Below, in pieces: positions 38,237-43,970 of a stretch of 64,000 bases of DNA. Below the pieces are notes generated by a model that saw only the letters and a list, made by a program, of their open reading frames with translations, was not told where the DNA came from and ran no database searches. Source of the DNA: Candidatus Poseidoniaceae archaeon. Lineage in GTDB: Archaea > Thermoplasmatota > Poseidoniia > Poseidoniales > Poseidoniaceae. The position numbers were made by a program, and so were the translations under genes. Within the stretch, counting starts at the first letter, position 1. Each line of letters opens with the position of its first letter. The DNA is taken from positions 77,279-141,278 of the forward strand of contig CASIAI010000001.1 in NCBI GenBank assembly GCA_949372655.1, written 5' to 3'.

Positions 38237-40840
38237 ATGGCAACCATTATCCATCCATTCTTGAATGATGGTGTTGAAGCCAGGGCTTATCAGATTCGTT
38301 CTCTGAGGAGTGCTTTGAGTTCCTCAAGCTTGATGGTCATGCCTACAGGATTTGGTAAAACTGCTGTTGAATGGATGATTATGGCAGAATATCTCAAGTT
38401 TGGAAATGGTAAAATATTACTCATCGCCCCTACAACTGGACTTGTTGAGCAACAACAGAGAATGGCTAGAGAGATGATCAACATCAGTGAAGAAAGTATT
38501 TCCAGGTATACTGGTGAAACAGCTCCAGCTAAAAGGCCTGATATCTGGAATGATTCAAAAATTATCATGGCGACATCACAAGTGATAAGGAATGATGCAC
38601 AAAGTGGTTCTATCGATTTAAGCGAAGTTTCGCTACTGATCGTAGATGAGGCGCATCATGCTACTGGTAACCATGCCTATGCGCAGGTAGGAGACCTATA
38701 CTTGGAGGCTAAACCTGATGCTGTAGTTCTTGGTGCTACTGCAAGTCCTGGTTCAAATGAGAAGAATATTCTTGAAGTGGCAAAAAGACTTGGTATTGAG
38801 AGACTAGATGTTTCCAGGCGCGAAGAACCACTACTTGACCCATATTCGGTTGAATTAGAAAATATACCTGTTCGAGTTGACCTTCCTGATGAATTGACAA
38901 CTCTAATTCATCCCCTTCAGGCTCATCAGAATGAGGAAATTAAAAGATTACAAAGATTGGGTTTTCTTGCACCTACACAACATTTAACATCAAAGATAAT
39001 AGATGCTGCACAGAAAAATGCGAGCATTGCAATTCAAAGAAGAGACGTTAGAGGATATGATGCTGCAAAAAGAATTTCAGACCTAAGAAGAATGCATTTA
39101 CTCATAGACTTACTAAAAACGCAGGGTATGAAATCAGCATGCTCTTATCTTCAAAGAGCGGAAGATGACGGTAGAAGTGGTGACCGTGGAACGAATAGGT
39201 TCGTATCGTTAGGACCTGTCCACAACTTTCGCATTGCTGCCAATGACTTACCCGAATTACATCCCAAAACAGAGAAAGTACATTCATTTGTCATAGAACA
39301 GTTAGACAAAAAACCCGAGAGTAAGATTCTAATATTTACAGAATTCAGAGATACTGTAGAAAACTTAGTTGCAAGTATTCATTCTATAGAAAAAGCCAAT
39401 GTTGATAAATTCATAGGTCAATCATCTAGGGGAAAGAGGAAAGGAATGAATCAAAAACAACAGTTGGAACAATTAAGGCGGTTTCGAGCTGGAGAAATAA
39501 ATGTCCTAGTTGCAACATCGGTTGGTGAAGAAGGGTTGGATGTACCTTCCGCAGACTTGGTATTATTATACGAACCTGTTCCAAGTGCAATACGGGCAAT
39601 TCAACGTAGAGGGCGGACTGCGAGACAATCAGATGGTACTGTTAAAACTCTAATTACCAGAAATACAAGAGATGAATTTGTTCATTCGGCAGCCCAAATT
39701 AGAGAAGAAAGAATGTATATCCTATTAGAGAAAATACAAAAAAGAGGTAGATTACCAAGAAGACCTCCTGCGACTAACGATGTTTTAGATAATTTCAGCG
39801 TTAAGGTTTCCGAAAATGAAATAATCGATGCTGCAGAATTCTTGCAATTAGAGATAGATAGATTGGTGACCCAAATACCATTCAAAAAACCCACTGAGAG
39901 TCCTTTGAAAGAGAATTCGGAAGTAATCTCTTCTAAGACTGAGTTAAGTCTTGGCCCAAGTGATAGAAGACCAAGAAATCAGACAGGTTTGGATTCTTTT
40001 TTTGAAGATTCAAAGCAGGAGAAGGTTGATTTGAGCCCTGTTGAGCATCGTAAAAAAGAATCTTCACTTGTTTCTGCTGCCCAAAAAGAAATCGAAAGTA
40101 TGGCTGTGAAGGTTGAACAAAAAATGATATTAGATCATCGTGAGTCTTCCTCGACATTAGCCGCCTATCTTCGCAGCATGGGTTTCGAGGTGGAATTTCG
40201 ACACTTAGACTGCGGTGACATTAAAATTACTGAAGAAGTACTTATTGAAAGAAAAACTTCTAGAGACTTATTAAATTCATTGACTGATGGTCGACTGATG
40301 AAACAGTGTCATAACTTGATTAAGAACTGTAAATATCCATTATTATTGATAGAATTAGGAGAGGTTGGTTCTGCAGTCCATCCAAATGCTGTATTAGGTG
40401 CAATGGCTCATATTACATTGGATATTGGAATTCCTGTGATGATGACAAAGAATACCTTAGAAACTGCTCACTTTCTTTCAATAGCAGCAAAAAGAAAGAA
40501 TGATGTCTTTGATGGGTTAAAAAAGTCATCAACTTTTATCTCTGATGAAGATGAGATTAATTATAAAATAGAAAGTGCCAAGAAAGAGATTGAACTCTTG
40601 ATTAGTGATGATACATATCAGTCTCCATTAGTTGAAAGATGGAATCTCGAGGCATTGAATCGGAAAACTGAAGTTATCACAAATATCACTGGAGTAAAAT
40701 TAGAAACTGCCAAATTTTTATTAGAACAGTTTGGTTCTCTAGCGTCTTTACTAACTGCTGAAAAAATAGATCTAATTAATATTGGAAAGATTGATTCACT
40801 GGAAGCTGAAAAAATAATTAATCGAATCAATCTTCAATGA
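38237..40840 (+). CDS. hef: Hef-like DEAH helicase / ERCC4 (XPF) nuclease
   Basis: MPTGFGKTAVEW, VDEAHHATGNHAY, GATASP, QRRGRTARQ; ERCC4 motif VLIERKTSRDLLNSLTDGRL; C-terminal HhH; start at MATIIHPFLNDG. Confidence 0.95.
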   Translation: MATIIHPFLNDGVEARAYQIRSLRSALSSSSLMVMPTGFGKTAVEWMIMAEYLKFGNGKILLIAPTTGLVEQQQRMAREMINISEESISRYTGETAPAKRPDIWNDSKIIMATSQVIRNDAQSGSIDLSEVSLLIVDEAHHATGNHAYAQVGDLYLEAKPDAVVLGATASPGSNEKNILEVAKRLGIERLDVSRREEPLLDPYSVELENIPVRVDLPDELTTLIHPLQAHQNEEIKRLQRLGFLAPTQHLTSKIIDAAQKNASIAIQRRDVRGYDAAKRISDLRRMHLLIDLLKTQGMKSACSYLQRAEDDGRSGDRGTNRFVSLGPVHNFRIAANDLPELHPKTEKVHSFVIEQLDKKPESKILIFTEFRDTVENLVASIHSIEKANVDKFIGQSSRGKRKGMNQKQQLEQLRRFRAGEINVLVATSVGEEGLDVPSADLVLLYEPVPSAIRAIQRRGRTARQSDGTVKTLITRNTRDEFVHSAAQIREERMYILLEKIQKRGRLPRRPPATNDVLDNFSVKVSENEIIDAAEFLQLEIDRLVTQIPFKKPTESPLKENSEVISSKTELSLGPSDRRPRNQTGLDSFFEDSKQEKVDLSPVEHRKKESSLVSAAQKEIESMAVKVEQKMILDHRESSSTLAAYLRSMGFEVEFRHLDCGDIKITEEVLIERKTSRDLLNSLTDGRLMKQCHNLIKNCKYPLLLIELGEVGSAVHPNAVLGAMAHITLDIGIPVMMTKNTLETAHFLSIAAKRKNDVFDGLKKSSTFISDEDEINYKIESAKKEIELLISDDTYQSPLVERWNLEALNRKTEVITNITGVKLETAKFLLEQFGSLASLLTAEKIDLINIGKIDSLEAEKIINRINLQ

Positions 40841-41108
40841 GTTGTACTATTCTTTGACCATCCAAAATTATTGGATACCTAAATGATAAGCCTTGTACAG
40901 GTGACATGATAGCCGTACAATCAAACTTGGAATCTGTAAATGCTTTATCTAACTCATTCAAGAATTTAAATCTAGCATTAGAAGCTACACTTAAACCTTG
41001 CTCGTAATTAAAAATCTCTATCAATTCATTGATATCTTTTCCTTCGAGAACACCCGCATACTTATTGTAATAGTCAGACAAATACATCTGCTTATCGATT
41101 CTAGGCAT
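40827..41108 (-). CDS. hypothetical protein, 93 aa
   Basis: ORF between hef (convergent) and the HdrB-like gene; no family recognised. Confidence 0.5.
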   Translation of the reverse strand: MPRIDKQMYLSDYYNKYAGVLEGKDINELIEIFNYEQGLSVASNARFKFLNELDKAFTDSKFDCTAIMSPVQGLSFRYPIILDGQRIVQLIED

Positions 41109-41138: not shown

Positions 41139-41996
41139 TCAGCCACCTATGACCCTAGCACGGGTCCTAAGTTGAGCAAACCTATCAGGAAAGTGACCAA
41201 AAGCAAAAGCAACTAATTCGGCAAGATGCATAATCGGCATACTTGTATCCTTATTGGTTTTCTTTCCAGCCTTTGTTTGGTAAGAGTCTAAATTCGCATG
41301 TGATACAGTACAGGCGCTAACCATAACTTCAGCACCACTTGTTTTAGCATCTGAAATTACCGAAGCAATTAGAGACATTACTGGTTTTCCAAGTGTCAGT
41401 AATGATGGGGCTCCAACACTTTGACACTTCAACTCATATTCAACTGGGATTCCTCCTAGCGCTGTAATTAGTTGTTCCATGTAAGTCGGCATAAAAGGGT
41501 CATCGCCTGAACAAGAACCTTCTTTTTGCATGTATGGTCCATAATATGCTCCAACATTCAAGTTGATTGGATTAACCACTGCATCATTAATTTTCTCAAG
41601 ACCTATTTCCTCTACTAAATAATGCAAAAGGTGCCATGAGTTTGCTTCACCAGAATATTCGACTCCTGTTGAACGGGCGATAAGATTGTTAAGTTGTGCC
41701 GTATAAATTGGATCTGCTTTTAGGTCATCTATTGTGTCGCACATAATACCGTGACTGGTTGCACATGTTGTCATGATATCCAGTCCTTTTTCCTCAGCCA
41801 ATGCTAAATTACGGGCAACTAAAGCATGCTGTAGTTTCGGTGATGCTTGACGAATGATGTTTCCACCATCGCTACTTGCTTTTGGTAGTTCAATAAGTTC
41901 GATGCCGAGTGTATGGCAAAGGGGTTGAATACAATCTTCAACTTCCATTGAGGCTGCTCTAGCTACATTTCCGGGATAGTATGCTATTTTTGCCAT
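41139..41996 (-). CDS. HdrB/SdhE-like CCG-domain protein with degenerate cysteine motifs
   Basis: Backbone matches HdrB (IAYYPGN..; LGIELIELPKAS; VARNLALAEEKGLDIMTTC; LNVGAYYGPYM; DDPFMP..; VEYELK..VGA; VMVSACTVSHANLDSYQ) but CCG cysteines largely substituted. Confidence 0.82.
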   Translation of the reverse strand: MAKIAYYPGNVARAASMEVEDCIQPLCHTLGIELIELPKASSDGGNIIRQASPKLQHALVARNLALAEEKGLDIMTTCATSHGIMCDTIDDLKADPIYTAQLNNLIARSTGVEYSGEANSWHLLHYLVEEIGLEKINDAVVNPINLNVGAYYGPYMQKEGSCSGDDPFMPTYMEQLITALGGIPVEYELKCQSVGAPSLLTLGKPVMSLIASVISDAKTSGAEVMVSACTVSHANLDSYQTKAGKKTNKDTSMPIMHLAELVAFAFGHFPDRFAQLRTRARVIGG

Positions 41997-42005
41997 AGCT
42001 CCACC

Positions 42006-43970
42006 TCAGAACCTCTGGTCGATTTCGTTAAACAAGCCTACAACTTGATGATGATCTTTGACCTTCCTATTGAACATATTAGGTATTTTACCAATTCCAG
42101 CTGGGGGTAAGATCAATGCTTGTAGACTTCTAAATGGAGGTGTTCCATTTCTAGTAAATCCGAGAACCATTCTTGCTGATACTCCATCAAAAACATTGCT
42201 AATTAGTCCGATAGGTCCTAAGACCTGTCTGTAGAGTGTTGTTTCGTTTAGATTACCTGTACCTTTAACACTACGTCCATATGACTTTACAAGACGACCA
42301 TGAGGTCCTCTGTAATTGGTTTGGTTTAGAATAAATGAGCGTACACTGTTCAAACCTTTAGATGCGGTCTTACCTTCTATTCCATGGCGTGAAATGGATG
42401 CTAGATCGGCTTCAGCCCAAACACCAGTAGAACTGTTTAATGTTGAAATTAGCGATTGCTTGTATGCTTCACCAGAACGTGGATCAATAGCACGGTTCCA
42501 TCTTTGCAAGTGAACCCCTGGGCCTTCATACTCAGAATCATAACTTACAGTATCAGACATAGAATGAAGAAGATAGTAAGAGCCTACATCACTCATAGCA
42601 TGAAGTGTCATTGCTTCCTCGGATGTCATTGTACCAACCGGTGAACCATTTAGCAAGTATTCACCGTCTCTGGGTTCAGAAACCATCCAAGGCTTTGCCT
42701 TTGAGCGGTTTTCTTCAAACTTGGAATAATCAACCACTAGATCTCGGATTACTGGATATCCGGACAATGGTTCTATCTTCAAAACCCCTGTGCTACTAAT
42801 AAGTTGAGAAACATTGGCTAAATCTGCTAAGACTAAACGATTGTTTACCCGTAAACCGGCAGTAGCAGTACCTGAACCATTCCCTGCTCTAAATGATAAA
42901 CTTCCATCAATATCATTCTTAACTGCAAATAGCAAATCTTGAACCGTTGCATTGGAAGGAATTGTACATTCAATTGTATCCCATCCAGATTGAGAAACCG
43001 CTGGACAATAGCGGAATAATTCAACCGTCAAAGATAATTCCGAGTCATCGATTAATCCTGGTGCGAAGTCACCTGAAACAACTTCTTCTCCAGTCCCTGA
43101 ACCCATAGCCATAACTTCTTCGAGAAGTTCGATTTGAAGAGTGCCTGATGAATCGACACAAGCGATTCTTGAAAGTGCTTCAGAGACCCATTCACCCCAA
43201 GGTATGTCAAAGTCTACATCACACAACTTAATTTCTTGAACCCTATTTGCACCTAGCGCTTCGTATTTATCGTCCCAGTCCACTCCGGCTTTACAAAATT
43301 CATCATAAGAAGTGTCACCTATTGCACAAATACTGAAACTGACACCTGAAAGTGATGGACCTTGAGAACTAACTGATTGCCATAATGTCTCTGCATTATC
43401 TGGCATCTCTCCTTCTCCCCAAGTTGATGTGATTATTAATGTCCTCTTATGATTTCCAAGAGTAGCAGCATCAAATCCATCCATATCATAAACAGTAGGA
43501 ATCAATCCGTAATTTTTTGCAAGTTTCGCAGTTTTTTCAGCCAGTCCAGCAGCATTGCCAGTTTGTGAACCGAATAATATAGCCAGTGAACGGTCACCTT
43601 CCATCAAGGCTGCTAATGCCCCGCTACCTGCGACTGGAGCAACTGATTGTTCAACGGCCGCTGATACTTCAGCAACTACTTCTACCGCTTCAGCGACTTC
43701 TTCTGTGACTCCGTCGGAAACCATTTCAAATTTAATAATCTCTACAGGACATGCTTCAGCCGCCTCCATGATTATGTCTGCATAATCTGTACCAAAACTA
43801 CCCGAAAGTGTAGACTTGCCAAGATTTCTATCCAAAGTTCCGTCTGTCCTCACCGCTGCAAGAATTTGTGAAGAATCATCGGTGACGATAAAAACTTCAG
43901 GTGCAACATCTTGGCAGGCATCACAAGTGATGCAATCATCTTCAATCCAAACTTTCGCTACAACGGTCAT
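42006..43970 (-). CDS. ferredoxin-flavodoxin-SdhB-like fusion protein
   Basis: N-term CITCDACQDVAPEVF...CPVEI ferredoxin; SLAILFGSQTGNAAGLAEKTAK flavodoxin; then SdhB-like SLTVELFRYCP...GSLSFRAGNGSGTATAG...VLKIEPLSGYPVIRDLVVDYSKFEENRSKAKPW...EYEGPGVHLQRWNRAIDPRS. Confidence 0.85.
   Translation of the reverse strand: MTVVAKVWIEDDCITCDACQDVAPEVFIVTDDSSQILAAVRTDGTLDRNLGKSTLSGSFGTDYADIIMEAAEACPVEIIKFEMVSDGVTEEVAEAVEVVAEVSAAVEQSVAPVAGSGALAALMEGDRSLAILFGSQTGNAAGLAEKTAKLAKNYGLIPTVYDMDGFDAATLGNHKRTLIITSTWGEGEMPDNAETLWQSVSSQGPSLSGVSFSICAIGDTSYDEFCKAGVDWDDKYEALGANRVQEIKLCDVDFDIPWGEWVSEALSRIACVDSSGTLQIELLEEVMAMGSGTGEEVVSGDFAPGLIDDSELSLTVELFRYCPAVSQSGWDTIECTIPSNATVQDLLFAVKNDIDGSLSFRAGNGSGTATAGLRVNNRLVLADLANVSQLISSTGVLKIEPLSGYPVIRDLVVDYSKFEENRSKAKPWMVSEPRDGEYLLNGSPVGTMTSEEAMTLHAMSDVGSYYLLHSMSDTVSYDSEYEGPGVHLQRWNRAIDPRSGEAYKQSLISTLNSSTGVWAEADLASISRHGIEGKTASKGLNSVRSFILNQTNYRGPHGRLVKSYGRSVKGTGNLNETTLYRQVLGPIGLISNVFDGVSARMVLGFTRNGTPPFRSLQALILPPAGIGKIPNMFNRKVKDHHQVVGLFNEIDQRF

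Follow-up and report, generated by a model that had tools for sequence, protein, structure and literature searches.

How can an iron-sulfur protein persist once most of the cysteines that held its clusters have been replaced, and what might it do without them? This question is raised by two adjacent genes in a 64,000-nucleotide stretch of DNA from a Candidatus Poseidoniaceae archaeon (hereafter the window), which encode an HdrB/SdhE-like protein (A) and a fusion protein with an SdhB-like domain (B). The Poseidoniales (Marine Group II), to which this archaeon belongs, rank among the most abundant archaea in ocean surface waters. Here, we establish the homology of both proteins, their gene pairing, a stepwise and parallel loss of ligands, strong purifying selection, the gain of a CysJ-type flavodoxin and the interchange of a ferredoxin with a second flavodoxin. 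The pair seems to be an electron-transfer machine rebuilt with little or no iron.

Cluster sites of proteins A and B

Protein A consists of 285 amino acids (41139..41996; this and all following features lie on the reverse strand) and is encoded by an intact open reading frame. The NCBIfam models of HdrB (E=2.6e-38) and SdhE (1.1e-30) match it over the full length, and the solved HdrB chains 8rvv_B (E=4e-34) and 5odc_B (E=5e-26) align with it from end to end, bearing out the original prediction that A follows HdrB throughout. Both NCBIfam scores fall far under the curated cut-offs (131.9 bits against 345 bits for TIGR03288). Besides this end-to-end homology, A shares with HdrB (PDB: 5odc, 8rvy) its fold, with a TM of 0.83 for the AlphaFold model, and its histidine and scaffold residues. 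In contrast to HdrB, eight of the ten CCG-ligand cysteines of A are replaced, so that the two complete five-cysteine CCG sites for noncubane [4Fe-4S] clusters are absent, and an HdrA/HdrC partner is missing from the locus.

All six ligand-motif replacements quoted in the original prediction are present (YPGN, SSDGGN, TTCATS, YYGP, QSVGA and CTVS). At the N-terminal site, the former Gly-Cys ligand is now Asn (aa 10, 41967..41969), the CCG cysteines are now Ser-Asp (aa 42-43, 41868..41873), and the former CxxC reads CATS (aa 78-81, 41754..41765). At the C-terminal site, the CCG cysteines have become Ser-Val (aa 193-194, 41415..41420) and CPFC has become CTVS (aa 229-232, 41301..41312). What remains is the first cysteine of each former CxxC, C78 and C229, both invariant in all 131 distinct orthologues. 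Two other CCG proteins of about 940 and about 680 amino acids, over the Pfam cut-off, are found in the window's own genome (L001, L002) and in relatives. As these are kept in lineages with and without the N-terminal site of A, the assembly of CCG clusters as such has probably been preserved.

Protein B (42006..43970) comprises 654 amino acids in four parts. A single-cluster [4Fe-4S] ferredoxin domain (aa 10-80, 43729..43943), whose residues C13, C16, C19 and C74 are invariant among ferredoxin-bearing relatives, is followed by an FMN-type flavodoxin domain (aa 131-251, 43218..43580) with a GSQTGN phosphate loop (PF00258, E=5e-27) that matches CysJ most closely and is thus of the CysJ/CPR type. 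The SdhB-like region (aa ~313-530, 42381..43034) is homologous to FrdB/SdhB, with a Fer2_3 match over the cut-off (PF13085, 7.5e-11), and a conserved C-terminal segment completes the protein (aa ~555-654, 42009..42308). AlphaFold gives only a low-confidence model of B (pLDDT 54), whose fold matches are still the flavodoxin domains of CPR/NOS and SDH B subunits. All 12 cysteines that would hold the three clusters of the SdhB part are replaced in the window's B (aa 364, 368, 371, 383, 462, 465, 468, 472, 520, 523, 526 and 530), and only three sporadic cysteines occur in these 12 columns among 46 diverse orthologues. The idea of a cluster-free complex therefore requires qualification: nearly all SdhB and SdhE sites are gone, but the window's B retains its [4Fe-4S] ferredoxin domain. 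For annotation this is a warning, as A and B fall under HdrB and SdhB profiles yet cannot work as such. The second Fer2_3 match in the window's own genome was examined and is the small subunit of xanthine dehydrogenase, not an SdhB.

Gene pairing and selection

Of the 195 class genomes, 163 contain protein A; it occurs in both large families (f1 and f2) and in every sampled Poseidoniales genome that is at least 90% complete. Only three class genomes of at least 90% completeness are without it, all belonging to family f3. The gene of B lies immediately upstream on the same strand at 70 of 70 loci in a first set and at 79 of 80 in a second, the sole exception sitting at a contig edge; the independent occurrence that would have spoken against a pair is not seen. 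Nearly all longer loci have a thermosome gene upstream and, downstream and oppositely oriented, a Hef-like helicase gene; these conserved flanks indicate an old locus that was passed on mostly by vertical descent. Clustering of neighbouring genes yielded no third member of the pair, only the fixed flanks (thermosome, Hef-like helicase, ribosomal proteins) and mostly strand-mirrored open reading frames, and no electron acceptor gene is encoded near the locus. A 93-amino-acid open reading frame downstream of A (40827-41108, reverse strand) overlaps the 3' end of the helicase gene and has no family match.

The loss of many cluster ligands could be taken as a sign of relaxed, decaying genes. This reading is refuted by the median dN/dS among close relatives (Nei-Gojobori): 65 pairs of A give 0.027, and 70 pairs of the SdhB-like part of B give 0.031. 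With values of about 0.03, far from the value near 1 expected of pseudogenes, with nearly all reading frames intact across 163 genomes and with residues that are invariant across the order, neither gene is decaying, as the long intact frames had already suggested.

In most f1 loci, B and A are in frame and separated by a single TGA (41996-42008 in the window). Readthrough of this codon from B into A was considered; the stop codon of B and the ribosome-binding site of A (GAGGTG) overlap, which suggests translational coupling as the simpler view. An apparent B-A fusion of 948 amino acids (L104) proved to be an artefact caused by an N inside the stop codon. At another locus (L203:2341-5331, genome G018), a single open reading frame of 997 amino acids joins B, minus its last ~29 residues, to A. 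It may be either a natural fusion or an assembly deletion; as evidence it is weak, and it was left out of the analysis.

Ancestry and order of ligand loss

SdhE of Sulfolobus was reportedly described by Hamann in 2009. In non-classical SQR, for example those of cyanobacteria and Campylobacter, SdhE/HdrB takes the place of SdhC/SdhD (PMC11014987). In a profile search of the phylum, the closest relative outside the class is family f6 (bits 220-246), where SdhA, SdhB and SdhE lie side by side in the genomes checked and where all ligands of SdhB and of both SdhE CCG sites are intact. The Poseidoniales pair thus goes back to a canonical SdhB-SdhE module or has an ancestor in common with one. Accordingly, the pair resembles class-E SdhB-SdhE in the full-length homology of both proteins and in the gene order, SdhB then SdhE, which f6 has as well; the f6 SdhB further shares with B a conserved C-terminal extension with an LNET..L motif. 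It differs from class-E modules in that the SdhB ligands and the C-terminal CCG site are lost order-wide and the N-terminal CCG site in most lineages, in that flavodoxin and ferredoxin domains are fused to SdhB in B, and in the absence of an adjacent SdhA. SdhA is encoded elsewhere, with its own SdhB, in near-complete Poseidoniales genomes, and the ligands of the one such SdhB that was read are intact (L281). Ordinary succinate dehydrogenase function is therefore covered outside the A-B pair.

The original prediction held both CCG sites to be degenerate. This is true of the window's A, in which no site is intact, and none of the 131 distinct A proteins has an intact C-terminal site: all have S193 and V or A at 194, 130 have S232, and C229 is always kept. 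It does not hold throughout for the N-terminal site, since 10 of the 131 proteins, from basal genera of both families, possess all five ligands (C10, C42, C43, C78 and C81). Elsewhere, these positions read N-S/G-D-C-S/A in f1 or N-S-C-C-T in f2. Judged from this distribution in present-day sequences, ligand loss was stepwise, with the SdhB clusters and the C-terminal CCG site going first and the N-terminal site later. The SdhB-like and HdrB-like proteins have thus both lost their ligands, as proposed, but not simultaneously. Living genera, from f6 with all ligands through basal Poseidoniales with one noncubane site to the majority with none, trace how iron-sulfur sites were stripped under strong selection, and the last step of this series is replicated in a second family.

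This replication rests on a tree from which the ligand columns and the correlated columns had been left out. In it, keepers and losers of f2 group together in a single clade (100/100), and forcing the losers of both families into a single clade costs 80 log-likelihood units and is rejected by the AU test (p=0.0013). Taken together, the N-terminal site was lost at least twice; the p-value is only indicative, because the comparison was chosen after the first tree had been seen. The same replacements, C10 to N and C42 to S, arose in both losses. In genus g5, genomes G022 and G049 (L205, L206) differ from G126 (L036) in whether the N-terminal site of A is intact or lost, which suggests either that the locus was replaced horizontally or that the genus needs to be divided.

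The second protein changed in parallel. At 11 columns the losers of both families agree and the keepers differ, compared with four and three columns in two mirrored partitions. These control partitions likewise require parallel change, and the comparison was defined after the tree had been seen. Six of the columns lie in A (10, 31, 42, 74, 154 and 226) and five in B (564, 580, 581, 589 and 625), and all five of the latter fall within the C-terminal segment of B, where they track the N-terminal CCG site of A in both families. Not all loser states are derived: F564Y and Y580 of B are, but R581 occurs in the outgroup as well. From this pattern we infer that the C-terminal segment of B probably faces the N-terminal pocket of A. 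Physical contact between the proteins is likewise an inference, drawn from adjacency and parallel evolution alone and without a model of the complex. The proposal that the ligands were lost by co-evolution rather than by random decay is supported by the two convergent losses and the accompanying changes in the partner.

Carriers, electron source and function of the pair

The N-terminal carrier of B is variable. Complete B proteins combine a ferredoxin with the flavodoxin at 88 loci and two flavodoxins at 30, and two loci (L067, L072) have the flavodoxin only; some genomes contribute more than one locus to these counts. The flavodoxin adjoining the SdhB domain is the constant element. According to a quick flavodoxin tree, the ferredoxin was exchanged for a second flavodoxin at least four times (starred branches). 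The exchange also takes place within the window's own genus. This swap of the N-terminus, which occurred several times and even inside one genus, separates for example L110, L112, L116, L122 and L141 from L103, L114 and L120. The use of flavodoxin in place of ferredoxin when iron is limiting is an established iron-economy strategy (PMC10287166, PMC5322553), and the swap in B provides a natural marker to compare against iron gradients.

A candidate source of electrons is encoded elsewhere in the genomes. All 12 near-complete genomes contain one strong CysJ-like FAD/NADPH reductase of ~410-460 amino acids, which is without an FMN domain in the three copies examined, and in nine of the 12 the only Flavodoxin_1 domain of the genome is that carried by B. 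The NIR_SIR haemoprotein (CysI) was not found in 19 genomes. We infer from these observations that they suggest a split diflavin reductase with its FMN half in B. The arrangement resembles CysJ and cytochrome P450 reductase in the type of flavodoxin and in having an FAD/NADPH half; it differs from them in that the FMN half is fused to apo-SdhB, the FAD half is a separate gene and CysI is absent. The reductase is not dedicated to the A-B complex, as it is also encoded by the sister family f3, in which A and B are missing and no flavodoxin lies beside the reductase. Stand-alone copies are found class-wide (L281:3025-4254 in G002, L282:2138-3442, L283:2528-3877, L288 and L289). In three genomes the copy adjoins biotin carboxylase; the G002 gene is divergent from a CrtI-family phytoene desaturase and lies near the canonical SDH.

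We postulate, at a probability of about one half, that A and B form an electron-transfer complex driven by NADPH and flavodoxin, built on an SdhBE scaffold that has been stripped of clusters and whose pocket has been remodelled; its acceptor is unidentified and there are no biochemical data. A canonical SdhB-SdhE module of a class-E type succinate dehydrogenase would have lost its SdhA neighbour and been rebuilt as a flavin-driven complex. The stand-alone CysJ-type reductase of the order would reduce the flavodoxin of B, the ferredoxin or second flavodoxin would serve as an interchangeable carrier, and the apo-SdhB domain together with A would act as a docking scaffold on which the carriers are offered to the acceptor. 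The N-terminal cluster pocket of A may have been refilled by side chains, namely N10, S42 and P154 of A and Y564, Y580 and R581 of B. The most plausible driver, as yet untested, is that oxic, iron-poor surface water favours sparing use of iron and of oxygen-sensitive clusters. A bolder version is possible and no more than tentative: a respiratory iron-sulfur module was turned stepwise, and twice in parallel, into a flavin-based, NADPH-driven complex, in which partner side chains replace a noncubane cluster and the two residual cysteines form a new active or binding site for a new substrate.

The alternatives differ in what they make of the conserved residues of A. Electron transfer might be retained through a new, smaller cofactor or metal bound by C78 and C229 together with the nearby H122 and H233. 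The two cysteines persist in 131 distinct proteins while the other ligands are gone in most lineages, the histidines are invariant across 70 loci, and the CCG domain of EtfD holds a linear [3Fe-4S] cluster with one cysteine fewer (PMC13083937). We nevertheless consider this rather unlikely, because the histidines, which relatives with intact clusters likewise possess, are thus unspecific, a single cysteine per domain in the window-type family lies below the need of any known CCG cluster, and the remnant of the CCG loop (aa 40-46) is of low confidence in the apo AlphaFold model. EtfD itself resembles A as an oxic-adapted protein with an altered CCG ligand set; in contrast to A, it has four to five cysteines per site, still binds clusters and is a membrane protein.

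It is unlikely as well that A and the SdhB domain are a purely structural platform, which anchors the flavodoxin and ferredoxin domains at the membrane or at another complex without chemistry of its own. Such a role would fit the order-wide loss of all SdhB ligands and the constant FMN core with its variable or absent N-terminal carrier, but the very strong selection on S193, C78 and C229 and the twofold convergent change of C10 to N suggest that the pocket itself matters. Quite improbable, in our assessment, is a flavodoxin-driven disulfide or thiol reductase in which C78 and C229 form a redox pair across the cleft of A, although both began a CxxC that is now CxxS, occupy symmetry-related positions in HdrB and are invariant, and although HdrB cleaves a disulfide substrate at its two noncubane clusters (PMC13083937). 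The distance between the two sulfurs has not been measured, and no free dithiol exists in basal lineages, where C78 is still a cluster ligand and C229 is equally invariant.

The literature searched contained neither a description of the A-B pair nor a precedent for complete loss of CCG ligands. The pair makes two questions testable: whether an electron-transfer complex can be rebuilt around flavin through iron economy, and which functions remain to a CCG scaffold without clusters. The fold search of A also returned, at rank 7 and with a TM of 0.69, the HdrB-like fold of an uncharacterised Helicobacter pylori protein (PDB: 3kwl), possibly a further CCG-fold protein.
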